64,000 bases of DNA. Source: a virus. The stretch's first letter is position 1; the number at the start of each line of letters is the position of its first letter. The DNA is taken from positions 62,001 to 126,000 of the IMG/VR virus record IMGVR_UViG_3300029319_009044; one strand, given 5' to 3'. The notes beneath the pieces were generated by a model. That model was not told where the DNA came from and made no database searches. It worked only from the letters and a program-made list of their open reading frames with translations. This document shows, one piece after another, positions 30,597-46,363 of this stretch. The translations under genes and the position numbers were made by a program.

Positions 30597-31646
30597 TTAT
30601 CTTAATCCAGTAGATTCGAAAACATCTCTAGTAACACCAGCTTTAAAGCCACCTTCAATACCTTTTACTATAACTGATACAGCATTATGACTATGTAAGC
30701 TTTCGTTATGAGAAGCAACAATCTTAAAGTCTAAAATACGAGATTCATTAGTAAGCTTTTCATAAAGCAATCTAACAGCATCTTCTACAAACTTTAGATA
30801 AGCACCATTTTTCTCTGCAAATGCTTGCTCATCTTCTCTCTTAACCATAACTTGCGTTTCAGTTTGTAAAGCAGCTAAACATAACTCTTGAATATCTTCA
30901 ATCCAAAGCATATCTTCAAATCTAACACTTACACGAGCAACACTTCTTTGACTATGAGGTACAGTAGCTCTATTGCGATACTTTTCTGCATGCTCACTTA
31001 ACTCGAAGCTACAAGGACAAGCAGATGAATAAACAAAATCGAAATGAATATACTTTTTAAATTCACCTTCTTTAGTTAAATCACCTTCAAATACTACATC
31101 GTAATATTGATAACCTTCTAACCCGCTGCGTAAACTATTTTGTTTAATAGGGTAAGAAATCTTAAGCATTATTCTAGAATCAAAACATTTAAGATTATTT
31201 TTATAAGTTTCTAAAACATCTTTGATCTTATCAATACTAAATGTCTCATCTTTATGATCGTAAAAACTTCTCATAATACGTGACATATTGATACCTTTCT
31301 TATGAGCTTCTAAACTAACACTACCGGTAACACTTGTTTCTAGTTCAATAGTTTTACCGTTTCGCTTTTTATAAGTAAGAGGTAATTTAAAGTTATGAAT
31401 ACCTACTTGTTGTATAGGTACTGCTGCTCCTTGAATTAAACTAGAAGGTCCATTTTGTAGATCAGGTAAAGAGGAAATATATTTTTTAGTAGCATTAACT
31501 TTATCATCATAAACTCTAATAGGAGGAAAATAACTCTTACTATATTCACTACCCATTATTTCTTTTGCTACAATATCCTTTTCACCAGTTAGTTCATCAT
31601 CTTCACCTAACCACTCATAATTAGAATCTTCTTTACTTTTACTCAT
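30597..31646 (-). CDS. folE2: GTP cyclohydrolase FolE2 (type IB)
   Basis: First step of the 7-deazaguanine route: GTP to dihydroneopterin triphosphate. Family motifs are visible: LPLTYKKRNG, TGSVSLEAHKKGINMSRIMR, the metal-binding cysteine in SSACPCSFELS, HSQRSVARVSV, and NESLHSHNAVSV. The 349-residue length is slightly above FolE2 norms because of an acidic N-terminal extension (1-45). It has a promoter 10 nt upstream and is divergent from the late gene at 31699. Confidence 0.9.
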   Translation of the reverse strand: MSKSKEDSNYEWLGEDDELTGEKDIVAKEIMGSEYSKSYFPPIRVYDDKVNATKKYISSLPDLQNGPSSLIQGAAVPIQQVGIHNFKLPLTYKKRNGKTIELETSVTGSVSLEAHKKGINMSRIMRSFYDHKDETFSIDKIKDVLETYKNNLKCFDSRIMLKISYPIKQNSLRSGLEGYQYYDVVFEGDLTKEGEFKKYIHFDFVYSSACPCSFELSEHAEKYRNRATVPHSQRSVARVSVRFEDMLWIEDIQELCLAALQTETQVMVKREDEQAFAEKNGAYLKFVEDAVRLLYEKLTNESRILDFKIVASHNESLHSHNAVSVIVKGIEGGFKAGVTRDVFESTGLR

Positions 31647-32238: not shown

Positions 32239-32850
32239 ATGACTTATACTTCATCAAAAGTAATTGAACTAGGATCTGCAGCTTTTCGTCAACCTAATGC
32301 TAGTTCACATTGCAAATATTTACATGGATATCAATTAAAAGCAGAGTTAACATTTGGTTGTAAAGAACTAGATGATAATAATTGGGTATACGACTTTGGT
32401 GGTTTAAAAGATCTCAAAACTATTTTCAATAATCAATTTGATCATACTACTGTTATATCAGGTAGTGATCCTGAGTTAGATACATTTAAAGAATTAGCTA
32501 ATAAAGATATTATTCAATTAAGAATTATGGATGGTGGTGTAGGTATTGAAAAATTTGCTGAATGGTGTTTTAAGACTGCAGATACTTTCGTTGATGAAGC
32601 TTCTGAAGGTCGTGTTTGGGTAGAAAATGTTACAGTATATGAGCATAGTAATAATTTTGCTTCTATTGGTAAAAGGCCTAAAGCTTCAACATTATATGTA
32701 AATGAAGAAGGTACCAAAACATATGTAGAAGTTGAAGAAGAAGCAACTGAAGAAACTTCAGCTCATAACCCTCGCGCTGCTAGAGTAGGTTCAGATGTAA
32801 GAGAAGGTAACTTTAGCGATCCCTTTGCAGGTACTTCATGGGGTAATTAA
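32239..32850 (+). CDS. queD: 6-carboxytetrahydropterin synthase QueD-like
   Basis: Second step to preQ0: converts dihydroneopterin triphosphate to 6-carboxytetrahydropterin. The T-fold pattern is clear: SSHCKYLHGYQLKAEL (catalytic Cys, metal His), DFGGLKDLK, QFDHTTVI and the VYEHSNN strand near the end. The usual HGH metal motif is HGY here; I recall this HGY form in alphaproteobacterial relatives, so it is probably functional. A 50-residue polar C-terminal tail (VEEEATEETSAHNPRAAR) is extra. Its end overlaps the phoH stop. Confidence 0.82.
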   Translation: MTYTSSKVIELGSAAFRQPNASSHCKYLHGYQLKAELTFGCKELDDNNWVYDFGGLKDLKTIFNNQFDHTTVISGSDPELDTFKELANKDIIQLRIMDGGVGIEKFAEWCFKTADTFVDEASEGRVWVENVTVYEHSNNFASIGKRPKASTLYVNEEGTKTYVEVEEEATEETSAHNPRAARVGSDVREGNFSDPFAGTSWGN

Positions 32851-33626: not shown

Positions 33627-34385
33627 ATGTCTATAGATTGTGATAAAGAAACGTTACTAGTATCTGATGATAAAGCCTTTTATACTTTAGAGGGTGAAGG
33701 TGAATTTGTGGGTATGCCTTCAGTATTCTTTAGGTTATCGATGTGTAATCTTACATGTAAGGGATTTGCTTCTGAAGATTCACCTCATGGTTGTGATTCT
33801 TATATTTCATGGTCAGTAAAGAATAAAATGACCTTTAATGAGATATTCGAATACTTTGAAAAACATAATCTGGTAGAGAAGTTAAAGAATGGGGCTATTT
33901 TTAAATTAACTGGTGGTGAACCTATGGTACAGCAAAAGCAATTGCTTAAGTTTATTGGTGCATTTATTGAAAAGTATGATTTTCATCCGTTAATTGACTT
34001 TGAAACTAATGCTACTATTAAGCCTGATGAAAAATGGATCGAACTTTATAGAGCTACTTTTACTACTTCACCTAAGTTAACTTCAAATGGTGACCCTGAA
34101 AGTAGAACGTATAAGCCCGAAGTATTAAAATGGCATAAAGAAGTAGGTTCAGGTTTTAAGTTTGTTATTACTACTGATAAAGATATAGAGGAGATTTGGC
34201 AAAAATATGTTGAAGATGATGTAGTACAAGTTCCTAAATCGAGAATTTGGTTTATGCCTTGTAGTGGTAGTAGAGCTGAGCATGTTGAAAAAGCTCCTGC
34301 AGTAGCTGAATATGCTAAAGCTATGAACGTTAATTTTTCACCGAGGCTACATCTACTATTATGGGATATGGCATTAAAGGTTTAA
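33627..34385 (+). CDS. queE: 7-carboxy-7-deazaguanine synthase QueE (radical SAM)
   Basis: Third step: ring contraction to 7-carboxy-7-deazaguanine. The opening FYTLEGEGEFVGMPSVFFRL is diagnostic. The cluster-binding cysteines follow as MCNLTCKGF ... HGCDSY, i.e. C-x3-C with a third cysteine 12 residues later instead of the usual C-x2-C; the loop SEDSP is an insertion. KLTGGEPMVQ and DFETNAT provide SAM and substrate contacts. At 252 aa it is longer than minimal QueE. Together with FolE2, QueD and QueC it completes preQ0 synthesis. Confidence 0.88.
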   Translation: MSIDCDKETLLVSDDKAFYTLEGEGEFVGMPSVFFRLSMCNLTCKGFASEDSPHGCDSYISWSVKNKMTFNEIFEYFEKHNLVEKLKNGAIFKLTGGEPMVQQKQLLKFIGAFIEKYDFHPLIDFETNATIKPDEKWIELYRATFTTSPKLTSNGDPESRTYKPEVLKWHKEVGSGFKFVITTDKDIEEIWQKYVEDDVVQVPKSRIWFMPCSGSRAEHVEKAPAVAEYAKAMNVNFSPRLHLLLWDMALKV

Positions 34386-42482: not shown

Positions 42483-43258
42483 TTATACAAGGTAAAGTAT
42501 TTCCAAATACTTACGAAACTGCTAAATGTTATACTACATTAGATTTTATAGATAAAGTAATTATATCTACTTGGGATAATGAAACGTTAGAATCAGATAA
42601 TAAAAATGTAGTAGTTGTTAAGAGCCCTGTGCCTTATACTCCACCTATGAATTTAAATTTGCAATTAGTATCTGTCAATGAAGGACTAAAACATGTCACT
42701 TCTGAATATACTATGAAGTTTAGAAGTGATCAAATGGTCATGAAAAGTAGTATGAAAATGCTAAAGAGATTTGTAGATAAAAAAGGTTTTGATTGCGATA
42801 TAAAATATACTGATGGTTCAGGTCCTAAAGGTAAAATTTATGCGGTGGGTATGGGTAGTCATTTTCCTTACCACCCTCAGGATCATATCTTTTGGGGTCA
42901 TACTGAAGATATTAAATCTCTATATAGTTGCCCTCTTTATAAAGAAGGGGAGCCAATAACACCAACATGGGAAGGTGGTTTTGAAAATGAAACAGTAAGA
43001 ATACCTTGTTATTTTGGATCACATTATTTTGCTAAATTTAATTCTGAAGTATATGAGCATATAGAAAATTATAAAGATTTTTTATTAGATACATCTCCAA
43101 GTAGATATAGAGCTATGCAAATATCAGAAGAATTAAGAGATAAAATTTTTGGTGTGTTTCCTAGAATTAAAATGTGGTGGGAGAAATACAATACAGGATA
43201 CAAGTATGATCTATATGAACCACAAGGAGAATATTATTATGACGAAGAGTGGGAATAA
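42473..43258 (+). CDS. WavE-like glycosyltransferase
   Basis: Begins MDIVIQGKVFPNTYETAKCY and continues with KVIISTWDNE, NLNLQLVSVNEGLK and YTMKFRSDQMVM, the order of motifs in WavE-type LPS core biosynthesis proteins. A later FGSHYFAKF segment and a very acidic C-terminus (PQGEYYYDEEWE) complete it. 261 residues. It probably contributes one linkage of the glycan; acceptor unknown. Confidence 0.65.
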   Translation: MDIVIQGKVFPNTYETAKCYTTLDFIDKVIISTWDNETLESDNKNVVVVKSPVPYTPPMNLNLQLVSVNEGLKHVTSEYTMKFRSDQMVMKSSMKMLKRFVDKKGFDCDIKYTDGSGPKGKIYAVGMGSHFPYHPQDHIFWGHTEDIKSLYSCPLYKEGEPITPTWEGGFENETVRIPCYFGSHYFAKFNSEVYEHIENYKDFLLDTSPSRYRAMQISEELRDKIFGVFPRIKMWWEKYNTGYKYDLYEPQGEYYYDEEWE

Positions 43259-43724
43259 GCTTATTGCACATAGAGGTAATACTACTGGAAAATCAAAGCA
43301 CGAGAATGACCCTCAATATATTTTAAATGCTTTAGATCAAGGTTATGATGTAGAAGTGGATGTAAGTTATAGAGATAAAAACTTTTGGTTAGGTCATGAC
43401 AATAATAAATATAGAGTAAATTTAGATTTTTTAAGCGATGAAAGAATATGGTGTCATTTAAAAGATAAAGAAAGTTTAAAGCAAATAATTGACATTATAG
43501 GTAGCGAAGAAATAAATTACTTTTGGCATACTTCTGAAGATTTTGTAATAACTTCAAAAGGATTTTTATGGCATCATTCTAAATGCCCTCTTTCAGATCT
43601 TACAAGTAAATCTATTATAGTACTTCCGGAAAATAAAAAAATATTTCCAAGAAGAAATAAACTATACAAAAAAATAAATCATTGCTATGGCATATGTAGT
43701 GATTATATTAAGATGTATGTTTAA
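43239..43724 (+). CDS. Glycerophosphodiesterase-like TIM-barrel protein, short
   Basis: The start at 43239 (MTKSGNKLIAHRGNTTG) is chosen because the longer frame lies entirely inside the preceding gene. HRGN and ENDPQYILNALDQGYDVEVDVSYRD reproduce the H-R-G and E-x-D metal motifs of GDPD enzymes, then FWLGHD and a HHSKCPLSDL segment. At 161 aa it is much shorter than typical GDPD (about 250), so part of the barrel is missing or the fold is minimal. It begins the sugar-phosphate gene run. Confidence 0.6.
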   Translation: MTKSGNKLIAHRGNTTGKSKHENDPQYILNALDQGYDVEVDVSYRDKNFWLGHDNNKYRVNLDFLSDERIWCHLKDKESLKQIIDIIGSEEINYFWHTSEDFVITSKGFLWHHSKCPLSDLTSKSIIVLPENKKIFPRRNKLYKKINHCYGICSDYIKMYV

Positions 43725-44184
43725 GCTTTTAATTTTAGATGTAGATGGGGTACTTACAACAGGCTGTAAAACATATGACCTCGAAGGTAATGTTATTAGT
43801 AAGGAATTTAACGATAAAGACTTTACTGCAATAAAACGTTTTAAAGAGAAGGGATTAAAGGTATGTTTCTTAACTGCTGATGATAGAGTTAATCGTATAG
43901 TAGCAAAAAATAGAAATATTGATTTCTACTACGTAAGAGAAATGACTAAAAAAAATAAAGTTGAGACACTTCCTTATCTTACTAGTAAATATAAAGTTAC
44001 TTTAGATGAGATAGCATATATAGGTGATGATCTACCTGATTTTGATATTATAAAAAAATTAAAACATACTTACTGTCCAAGTGATGCAATACTAAAAATT
44101 AAAAACCAAGTTAAAACGATCCTCGAAAGAAGGGGTGGTACTGGAGTTATTGCAGAACTATATGATAATATATTTAATGAATAG
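43717..44184 (+). CDS. KdsC-like HAD phosphatase
   Basis: Start at the ATG at 43717, giving MFKLLILDVDGVLTTG; the longer frame has no HAD function upstream. HAD motifs: DVDGVLT (nucleophile Asp8), FLTADD, KVETLPYL and IGDDLPDFDIIKK. Length 155 equals capless KdsC phosphatases, which release phosphate from Kdo-8-P or other sugar phosphates. In this module it would be the phosphatase step between kinase and nucleotidyltransferase. Overlaps on both sides are 8 nt. Confidence 0.82.
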   Translation: MFKLLILDVDGVLTTGCKTYDLEGNVISKEFNDKDFTAIKRFKEKGLKVCFLTADDRVNRIVAKNRNIDFYYVREMTKKNKVETLPYLTSKYKVTLDEIAYIGDDLPDFDIIKKLKHTYCPSDAILKIKNQVKTILERRGGTGVIAELYDNIFNE

Positions 44185-44866
44185 TATCTCTCTATATGGG
44201 CATTTAACTACTGATACTATTTTTGATGGTAATACAACTTATAATTCGGTAGGAGGTTTAGGTAATGTATGGTTTATGTTATCTAAAATCTGTAAGAATT
44301 ATCAAGTAAATGTTGAGCCTACAAATGTTGGAGAAGCATTAATTTTAGTCAATAAAGATAAAGCAGAAAGATCATCAATAGCAAATTTAAATAAAATAAA
44401 AAGAACACCAGTCATTAAAGATTCAGAATGGTCACATATACTTTACGTAAATGAATTAGATGATATATCATTTATTAAAGATGTAAGAAATAAAAGTAAG
44501 ATAGTTTCTATAGATATTTGTAAAGGTAGACCATTTAAACAGTTTGATATTTTAAAATATATTGATTACTTTTTTATATCTGATGAAGATTTATTTATGG
44601 ATGTAAATGAGTTAGCTAAAAAAGTTAAGGGTTGGGTTATCTTACATCATAAAGGCGGTAGTAGTTGTTTAAGTAAAGATAAAGTATTTGATACATCTAC
44701 ACCAGTTATTGATGGTATAAATGTTTTAGGAGCAGGGGATATGTTTGCTGCAGCAACAATAAACTGCATTCTCAATACAGTTGATAAATCTAATTTGCAG
44801 TATAATATAAAAGAAGCGCACTCTATTACTTCAAAAATTTTAGCTGAAATAAATGAAAAAAACTAA
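44177..44866 (+). CDS. PfkB-family sugar kinase
   Basis: Start at 44177 (MNSISLYGHLTTDTIF), which overlaps the phosphatase by 8 nt; the longer frame is less plausible. The ribokinase-fold signatures are TYNSVGGLGNVWF (substrate glycines) and NVLGAGDMFAAATI (anion hole and catalytic Asp, about 183-196). At 229 aa it is compact compared with about 300 for ribokinase or HldA. It would phosphorylate the anomeric carbon of a sugar phosphate in an HldA-like step. Confidence 0.75.
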   Translation: MNSISLYGHLTTDTIFDGNTTYNSVGGLGNVWFMLSKICKNYQVNVEPTNVGEALILVNKDKAERSSIANLNKIKRTPVIKDSEWSHILYVNELDDISFIKDVRNKSKIVSIDICKGRPFKQFDILKYIDYFFISDEDLFMDVNELAKKVKGWVILHHKGGSSCLSKDKVFDTSTPVIDGINVLGAGDMFAAATINCILNTVDKSNLQYNIKEAHSITSKILAEINEKN

Positions 44867-46019
44867 TATACTAATTCCTATAGCTGGTAGAGGTCAACGT
44901 TTTGTTGATCAAGGCTATGTAATGCCTAAACAACTTATAATGGTTGATGATAAGCAAATGATTGATTGGAGTTTAGATTCAATTCTTAAGAAAGAAGAAT
45001 GTAATCTTATATTTGCTATAAGAAGGGATCATATAAGTAACTTTTCATTAGATAAAATTTTAAAGAGTAGGTATGGAGATGATATTAAAATTATTATTAT
45101 AGATAAGATTACTAGAGGGTCAGTAGAGACCTGCTTACAAGCAGAAAAATATATTGATAATGATAATCCTTTAATAGTATATACTCTAGATGTTTTCTTT
45201 GAACCATCTTTTGATCCTACAAAAATAGATCATAATATTAATGGTTCAATTTTAACATTTAAAAGTAACAACCCTGCTTACAGTTATGCATCACTAGATA
45301 AAAATAAAAACGTAATAAAAACAGCTGAAAAAGAAGTTATCAGTGAAAATGCTGCTGTTGGTGTATATACGTTTACTAAAGGTAGTGAATTTGTAAAGTA
45401 TGCTAAGTTAATGATAGACTTAGATCTTACTACAAATAATGAATTTTATATTTGCCCATTATATAATTTAATGATTGAGGATGGTTGTACTATCAAGACT
45501 AAAGATGTAGAAAAAATGCATCTCATGGGAACGCCTGAAGAGCTAAATTTTTTCGTAACTCATACATTAAAAACTTTTGGTGATAAACCAATCGCTCTCT
45601 GTGCAGATCATTCAGGATGGGATCTTAAAGAACAAGCTAAATCTATTTTAGATAAATACGAGTTACCATATACTGATTTTGGTACTTTTGTTAATAAAGA
45701 TTGCGATTATAATGATTACGTTTTTCAGGTTACAGATTTTATTAATAAAGGTAATTGTGATTTTGCTTTAGCTTTTTGTAGAACTGGTCAAGGTATGAAT
45801 ATATCTGGTAATAAGCAAAAAGGTATCCGAAGTGCTTTAGTATTTAATGAATACACAGCTGAATATGCTGTTAGGCATAATTGCGCAAATTATTTTTCTA
45901 TACCAAGTAAATTTGTAGATAAAGAGTTATTAGATGATATGATTTATATCTGGATAACTACTACTTTTGATGGAGGTAGACATGCGACCCGTATTCAAAA
46001 AGCAGAAACTGGTAAGTAA
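44853..46019 (+). CDS. Fusion of sugar nucleotidyltransferase and RpiB-type isomerase
   Basis: Residues 1-235: NTP-transferase fold, ILIPIAGRGQRFVDQGYVM with PKQLIMVDD, then VYTLDVFFEP, NAAVGVYTF and TPEELNFF. Residues 245-388: RpiB/LacAB fold, ALCADHSGWDLKEQAK, FCRTGQGMNISGNKQKGIR with the Cys at the RpiB catalytic position, EYAVRHNCANY with the matching His, and FDGGRHATRIQKAE. Both active sites look intact. The chain unites the isomerase that would open the pathway with the nucleotidyltransferase that would close it. I know of no standard family with this fusion. Confidence 0.82.
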   Translation: MKKTNILIPIAGRGQRFVDQGYVMPKQLIMVDDKQMIDWSLDSILKKEECNLIFAIRRDHISNFSLDKILKSRYGDDIKIIIIDKITRGSVETCLQAEKYIDNDNPLIVYTLDVFFEPSFDPTKIDHNINGSILTFKSNNPAYSYASLDKNKNVIKTAEKEVISENAAVGVYTFTKGSEFVKYAKLMIDLDLTTNNEFYICPLYNLMIEDGCTIKTKDVEKMHLMGTPEELNFFVTHTLKTFGDKPIALCADHSGWDLKEQAKSILDKYELPYTDFGTFVNKDCDYNDYVFQVTDFINKGNCDFALAFCRTGQGMNISGNKQKGIRSALVFNEYTAEYAVRHNCANYFSIPSKFVDKELLDDMIYIWITTTFDGGRHATRIQKAETGK

Positions 46020-46363
46020 TGGAAGTAAAGCATATAGATAATTTTACTAATGGTTGGTTTATTGGTGATTTTGAACCATCATTATTTAAAAATCCTTTTT
46101 TTGAGGTCGCTCATCAACACCATAAAAAAGGTAAAATAGGTGATAAACATTTTCATAAACTTACAACTGAGGTTACGTATATTGTTACTGGTTCAATGAA
46201 GATAAATGATCTTGCACTTAATAGAGAGCGATTTTTAAAAGCTGGTAATATGTTTACTTTCTTTCCTAACGAAGTATCTGATGTAGAGTTTTTAGAGGAT
46301 TCTGATCTTATAGTAGTAAGATGGCCATCTATACCTACTGATAAATATATGGTTGAACTATAA
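46019..46363 (+). CDS. Cupin-fold protein
   Basis: 114-residue single-domain cupin: VAHQHHKKGKIGDKHFHKLTTEVTYIVTG carries the cupin-1 histidines (written here only as positions 33-60 with HQHH, HFH, E), and AGNMFTFFPNEVSDVEFL is the second motif. It begins on the last base of the fusion gene's stop. Sugar-isomerising or epimerising cupins are common in NDP-sugar clusters, so a tailoring step is likely; the exact reaction is unknown. Confidence 0.65.
   Translation: MEVKHIDNFTNGWFIGDFEPSLFKNPFFEVAHQHHKKGKIGDKHFHKLTTEVTYIVTGSMKINDLALNRERFLKAGNMFTFFPNEVSDVEFLEDSDLIVVRWPSIPTDKYMVEL

Follow-up and report, generated by a model that had tools for sequence, protein, structure and literature searches.

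What does a virus gain from a single protein that is a nucleotidyltransferase (NT) over its first half and an RpiB-type isomerase over its second? The window considered here, a stretch of 64,000 nucleotides, belongs to a source record of 170,908 bases that encodes a T4-type portal, major head protein, tail sheath stabilizer and DNA polymerase; the carrier is a marine virus of bacteria with T4-like genes. The original prediction, made from the sequence of the window, was that the two halves form a fusion with both active sites apparently intact, that they represent the first and last enzymes of a sugar activation pathway and that their union in one chain suggests channelling. No NT–RpiB fusion was found described in the open-licence papers searched.

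A single gene for two enzyme domains

The fusion itself is confirmed. The gene (Table 1) is one intact open reading frame of 388 codons with an ATG start and no stop between the halves, and both Pfam domains score above cut-off in the one chain: PF00483 (NTP_transferase) at residues 11–177 (29.1 bits, Pfam cut-off 21.2) and PF02502 (LacAB_rpiB) at residues 247–383 (126.5 bits, Pfam cut-off 24.7). The motifs on which the prediction drew are found at residues 11–17 (AGRGQRF), 25–28 (PKQL), 308–314 (FCRTGQG), 340–343 (VRHN) and 374–377 (GGRH).

Table 1 Features of the fusion gene and its neighbours (positions in the window)
Feature	Position	Strand	Basis
NT–RpiB fusion gene	44853..46019	+	ORF, Pfam, PHROG and NCBIfam scans, AlphaFold model
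NT half, residues 1–236	44853..45560	+	PF00483; 4evw_A structural match; conserved columns
RpiB/LacAB half, residues 244–384	45582..46004	+	PF02502 and TIGR00689 above cut-off; PDB relatives 3ph3, 3he8
D252–H253 (LdRpiB Asp10–His11)	45606..45611	+	113/113 phage domains; equivalence by alignment here
C309 (catalytic base position, LdRpiB Cys69) and R310 replacing the usual Gly	45777..45782	+	C 113/113, R 108/113 phage domains
H342 (LdRpiB His102 position)	45876..45878	+	113/113 phage domains
R376, H377, R380 (LdRpiB Arg137, His138, Arg141 positions)	45978..45992	+	R376 and R380 113/113; H377 111/113
Small 'HRGN' protein, recurrent neighbour	43236..43724	+	phrog_34507; no Pfam match
KdsC/YrbI-like HAD phosphatase	43687..44184 (start may be 43717)	+	PF08282 32.9 bits (cut-off 20.9)
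Short PfkB/ribokinase-fold kinase, 229 aa, GAGDMFAA motif	44177..44866	+	Overlaps both neighbours
Small presumed cupin, usually after fusion	46019..46363	+	phrog_24762; no Pfam match

An AlphaFold2 model of the whole fusion, computed from 23 sequences (the window protein and 22 viral relatives), has a mean pLDDT of 90.4 and a pTM of 0.83. The best structural match is that of the NT half to 4evw_A (Z 27.8, rmsd 2.1, 228 residues aligned), and the matches listed for the fusion model all begin in the NT half. As this one domain dominates them, the RpiB half is absent from the matches listed and its assignment is based on sequence: profile comparison places it among solved RpiBs, with 3ph3 the best (3.8e-34) and 3he8 also found. 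A search of BFVD gave no full-length two-domain match among the matches listed.

Open reading frames spanning both halves number 84. Scanning IMG/VR with the single protein yielded 20 loci and with an alignment 136 confirmed matches (80 kept), whilst a scan with the RpiB half yielded 183 (80 kept); both halves lie in one open reading frame in 79 of these last 80, the other being cut by a contig end. Measured between the window gene and five relatives of 91–96% identity, dN/dS is 0.036–0.058 for the NT half, 0.010–0.085 for the RpiB half and 0.033–0.056 for the whole gene, values that indicate strong purifying selection on each half. With 84 such frames and so low a dN/dS, the fusion is neither chance nor assembly error, and a false join or stop between the halves can be set aside. 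At one locus (L221, 5691 and 6248) the fusion reads as two overlapping frames; in its near relative L222 it is one.

The family has in fact already been catalogued, as PHROG 3980 ('unknown function'), whose profile spans fusion residues 3–381 (E 1.9e-81). Among isolates, the fusion is carried by the Synechococcus phages SynMITS9220M01 and Bellamy, in three records of 53–54% identity annotated 'phosphatase'.

The nucleotidyltransferase half

Conserved positions in the NT half comprise G12, R16, P25–K26, D113 and E159–K160. Alongside its Pfam score, the GxGxR...PK signature and the metal-binding Asp (D113, 84/84) place it in the NTP_transferase family, and the NCBIfam equivalogs listed for named specificities (RmlA, GalU and others) all fall below cut-off. 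The claim of an intact active site stands here for D113, E159 and K160 but not for the Asp of DxGTP, a position that we take to belong to the NT signature. An Asp two residues before GTP is uncommon in phage and bacterial NT relatives alike, and since the bacterial relatives also lack it, its absence is a family trait.

In a tree of NT domains, those linked to HAD and PfkB genes form one viral clade (100/99) separate from the bacterial NTs. A five-member clade lacking RpiB sits past an open fork (85/83), so that this tree speaks neither for nor against a single origin of the fusion with one loss; L019, counted as unfused in this tree, is actually truncated by a contig end. Other architectures also occur: a tandem NT–NT protein of 524 aa in phage Bellamy (L002, 11223–12794), and HAD–NT fusions of ~455 aa in phage, Pelagibacter and Prochlorococcus records (L021, 5159–6517; L094, 5347–6723; L096, 2855–4225).

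A phage fusion rather than a bacterial one

Were the fusion a well-known bacterial family, it should be evident in bacterial genomes. Genomes sampled from three phyla (194, 296 and 299, 789 in all) gave no match across both halves at E ≤ 1e-40, 1e-40 and 1e-50, respectively; fused copies in two MAGs score near 1e-200. Those two copies (L089 and L090) are the only fusions among the 80 matches kept, of 538 confirmed, in a scan of a species-genome collection, a scan that divergent bacterial fusions might escape since it used two short peptide patterns only. Both lie on MAG contigs in the phage-type order HAD–PfkB–fusion–cupin–GDPD, and the L090 contig, 15,998 long, is identical in size to an IMG/VR contig. 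On these samples and pattern scans a bacterial origin of the fusion is rejected. The contigs that carry the phage-type modules L089, L090 and L092 had been binned into Flavobacteriaceae/Crocinitomicaceae MAGs.

The NT half also has bacterial relatives, and these recur in a cluster of their own, together with a cupin, a second NT and a HAD of another kind. In its widespread form (L099, L118, L131, L180–L184) this comprises GDPD-like, PGM-like HAD, NT, cupin and second NT genes; the parts vary by locus, the NT and cupin are related to those of the phage module, and RpiB and PfkB are absent. A scan of cyanobacterial genomes for lone RpiBs of the CRxGQG subfamily matched 3 of 194 (E ≤ 1e-33); two of the matches, both complete proteins, have the CGTGxG form, and only part of the third was obtained.

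The operon

In the window, the HAD, PfkB, fusion and cupin frames overlap end to end. The nearest models to the HAD protein, NF058599 and TIGR01670, both score below cut-off; its profile match in the PDB (2p9j, 2.6e-28) confirms the predicted KdsC-like subfamily. For the kinase PF00294 reaches 19.7 bits, below the Pfam cut-off of 25.8; the PfkB family profile finds 2c49 (2.8e-11) and the predicted structure (pLDDT 93.4) has ribokinase matches up to Z 21.8, confirming the modelled PfkB fold. The small protein after the fusion is called a cupin from what we take to be its fold, and the 'HRGN' protein presumably a GDPD from its motif. Elsewhere in the window, a FolE2 GTP cyclohydrolase (30597–31646, minus strand), a PTPS/QueD-type protein (32239–32850, plus strand) and a Fer4_12 protein (33627–34385, plus strand) are grouped, presumably a sign of a 7-deazaguanine (DNA modification) pathway.

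Across 173 viral stretches, the order HAD–PfkB–fusion is found in 126 (9 of them accompanied by a split transketolase, 117 not) and HAD–PfkB–NT without RpiB in 28 (17 without and 11 with it). Two stretches have an NT plus a separate NT+RpiB frame, 17 are incomplete within the stretch, and a free RpiB of the fused kind was seen in none of the 173. One fused locus (L041) has no HAD gene in several kb of flanking sequence.

The transketolase, whose halves pass Pfam (PF00456, 44.3 against a cut-off of 22; PF02779, 33.2 against 27), is encoded by two short adjacent genes beside HAD–PfkB–NT, for example at L092 (6722–7838) and L169 (5722–6844), and further at L192–L196, L200–L203, L209, L238, L241, L254 and L269. 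Once ten repeats of a single contig and two loci truncated at contig ends are left out (the two sets overlap in part), it is present in 10 of 25 RpiB-less modules and absent from 15, against 7 and 111 of 118 fused modules (Fisher p 4e-5, indicative only, the contigs being related). The enrichment suggests substrates drawn from the pentose-phosphate pool. That transketolase is a strict substitute for RpiB is rejected, as seven fused modules hold both. As 15 RpiB-less modules lack a transketolase in the stretch examined, and a Pfam scan of the neighbours tried names no isomerase, the kinase, HAD and NT are not invariably accompanied by an isomerase gene.

A candidate sugar-nucleotide pathway

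Heptose-type activation requires an isomerase, a C1 kinase, a phosphatase and a nucleotidyltransferase. With a kinase and phosphatase conserved in the operon and catalytic positions kept, the idea that the fusion joins the first and last enzymes of such a pathway is plausible, and we think it probable that the fusion is a bifunctional enzyme in a phage-encoded four-step sugar-nucleotide route, heptose-like in layout but built from other families. In the step order that we infer, the RpiB half would convert a ketose phosphate to an aldose phosphate, the PfkB kinase would phosphorylate it, presumably at C1, the KdsC-like HAD enzyme would strip the terminal phosphate and the NT half would couple a nucleotide with the sugar-1-phosphate. 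The resulting NDP-sugar might then pass to glycosyltransferases of the same cluster, the acceptor perhaps being the virion, DNA or the host surface.

Channelling between the halves finds no support: the kinase and phosphatase steps intervene between steps 1 and 4, which share no intermediate. Co-expression at a fixed ratio or co-assembly would be enough to explain the fusion. E. coli HldE, which carries out steps 2 and 4 of heptose activation, is likewise a union of activities that do not follow one another directly.

NDP-sugar synthesis is the likeliest predicted role, with NDP-ribose, perhaps, as product, a first guess prompted by ribose 5-phosphate (R5P) being a possible product of RpiB and of transketolase alike. 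A route in marine T4-like phages to NDP-ribose or another pentose (Ru5P to R5P to ribose 1,5-bisphosphate to ribose 1-phosphate to NDP-ribose) is offered tentatively, as a possibility that falls well short of an even chance. R5P would come from the RpiB half, or from the split transketolase in RpiB-less relatives; the PfkB kinase would make ribose 1,5-bisphosphate, the HAD enzyme ribose 1-phosphate and the NT half NDP-ribose. If this is true, the phages would be making an unusual donor.

The main alternative to an NDP-ribose product keeps the four steps and makes the sugar a heptose, with transketolase supplying sedoheptulose 7-phosphate and the RpiB half replacing GmhA. It would account for the split transketolase that adjoins some modules, and the step order fits the heptose route; however, it would leave the RpiB-less transketolase modules without an isomerase. 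It is weakened further by SynMITS9220M01, reported to have a phosphoheptose isomerase and heptose genes of its own besides the fusion (PMC7378029), such that the module probably serves a second, different sugar. We regard a heptose product as unlikely.

The isomerase half

Does the RpiB half retain catalysis? In addition to PF02502, the family model TIGR00689 is matched above cut-off (115.7 against 88.3), and in 113 distinct phage RpiB halves, compared with 11 bacterial domains, D252, H253, C309, H342, R376 and R380 are invariant, comprising the Asp–His pair, the catalytic Cys and His and the phosphate-binding Arg positions. N316 and S254 are also invariant across the phage halves, and C344 nearly so. 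The residue roles are those given for the Leishmania enzyme in PMC4783025, according to which activity required Cys69 and His102, whilst Thr71 and the NH groups of Gly70–Gly74 help to stabilise the intermediate.

The prediction of an intact site thus stands for the catalytic positions but not for the residue after the catalytic Cys: the window has Arg there, as do 108 of 113 phage domains. The bacterial domains have Cys in 10/11 and Gly in 9/11 at these two columns, and PMC3212906 calls this Gly 'universally conserved'. Q313, found in all 113 phage domains, is absent from the 11 bacterial ones. The ribose-5-phosphate isomerase B equivalogs are likewise missed (TIGR01120, 99.6 against 138.65; PRK05571, 118 against 135). 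The label 'RpiB' is therefore to be read at family level only, and missed equivalogs together with an oxyanion-loop Gly changed to Arg suggest that the substrate may differ from Ru5P/R5P. The same Arg and Gln might instead signal that catalysis has been lost or changed and that the half serves the NT as a dimerisation or sensing domain. We consider this improbable, since a binding-only domain could dispense with both the Cys and the His, yet all six positions are invariant and dN/dS is low. The phage domain also supplies a natural variant of RpiB whose active-site loop is altered.

Stand-alone viral RpiBs

Canonical bacterial RpiB queries against viral contigs gave 139 confirmed matches. Of the 80 kept, none has an NT half and none has an NT, HAD or PfkB of the fusion-module kind within ~3 kb, which makes the kinase/phosphatase link particular to the fused subfamily. 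These 80, and two ~65 kb Synechococcus phages with a partial match annotated as isomerase, reject the notion that all viral rpiB is the fusion. Two of the canonical viral RpiBs (L390, L391) are 256 aa long and carry an additional N-terminal stretch.

Viral rpiB, reported from cyanophage scaffolds and interpreted there as boosting nucleotide synthesis (PMC4022391), has together with tkt been assigned to pentose-phosphate and nucleotide metabolism (PMC4022391, PMC3877843, PMC4053976); rpiB is also among the pentose-phosphate genes in PMC10653327, and the table of a 2025 review has viral rpiB as 'Not validated' (PMC12713726). That the RpiB half is such an auxiliary gene, supplying ribose 5-phosphate for nucleotides as those virome papers take viral rpiB to do, with the NT incidental, is very unlikely given that the subfamily is fused in 79 of 80 matches, sits in sugar clusters where examined and is distinct from the stand-alone viral RpiBs. 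The fusion offers another reading for some 'ribose isomerase' genes of marine viruses: at least one entire class of viral RpiB forms half of a sugar-NT-type protein encoded in a glycan cluster, so K01808 counts may mix two things. If the NDP-ribose route is correct, part of the 'rpiB'/'tkt' auxiliary signal in marine viromes would reflect glycan rather than nucleotide metabolism. The case also supplies a directly testable four-enzyme pathway.

Comparison with known systems

Among solved structures, the nearest to the NT half by both fold comparison and profile (E 9.4e-31) is 4evw, a structural-genomics entry labelled as a Vibrio cholerae nucleoside-diphosphate-sugar pyrophosphorylase, which differs in being a 255-residue chain without an RpiB half. 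PHROG 3980 covers nearly the whole fusion, and of the Bellamy and SynMITS9220M01 proteins that align with it, the latter matches the PHROG profile; its listing, however, mentions neither a described function nor a domain fusion. RpiB/LacA/LacB isomerases share the family models and the catalytic Cys/His and phosphate Arg positions, whereas the phage domain is fused C-terminal to an NT, has CRxGQG in place of the usual CGxGxG and falls below the equivalog cut-offs. Stand-alone viral RpiBs share the isomerase superfamily and likewise occur on viral contigs, but lack the NT, HAD and PfkB and, among those listed, the CRxGQG loop.

The nearest parallel at pathway level is ADP-/GDP-heptose activation (GmhA, HldE or HddA/HddC, GmhB), with all four activities in common, a PfkB kinase as in HldE and two steps on one polypeptide. 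The PfkB-fold kinase is matched by profile and model (Pfam alone being below cut-off), but the other parts differ: an RpiB in place of a SIS isomerase, with no SIS match in the 10 window proteins scanned; a KdsC/KDN-9-P-phosphatase-like rather than GmhB-like HAD (NF006506, 17.9 against 178); and an NT of the PF00483 family.
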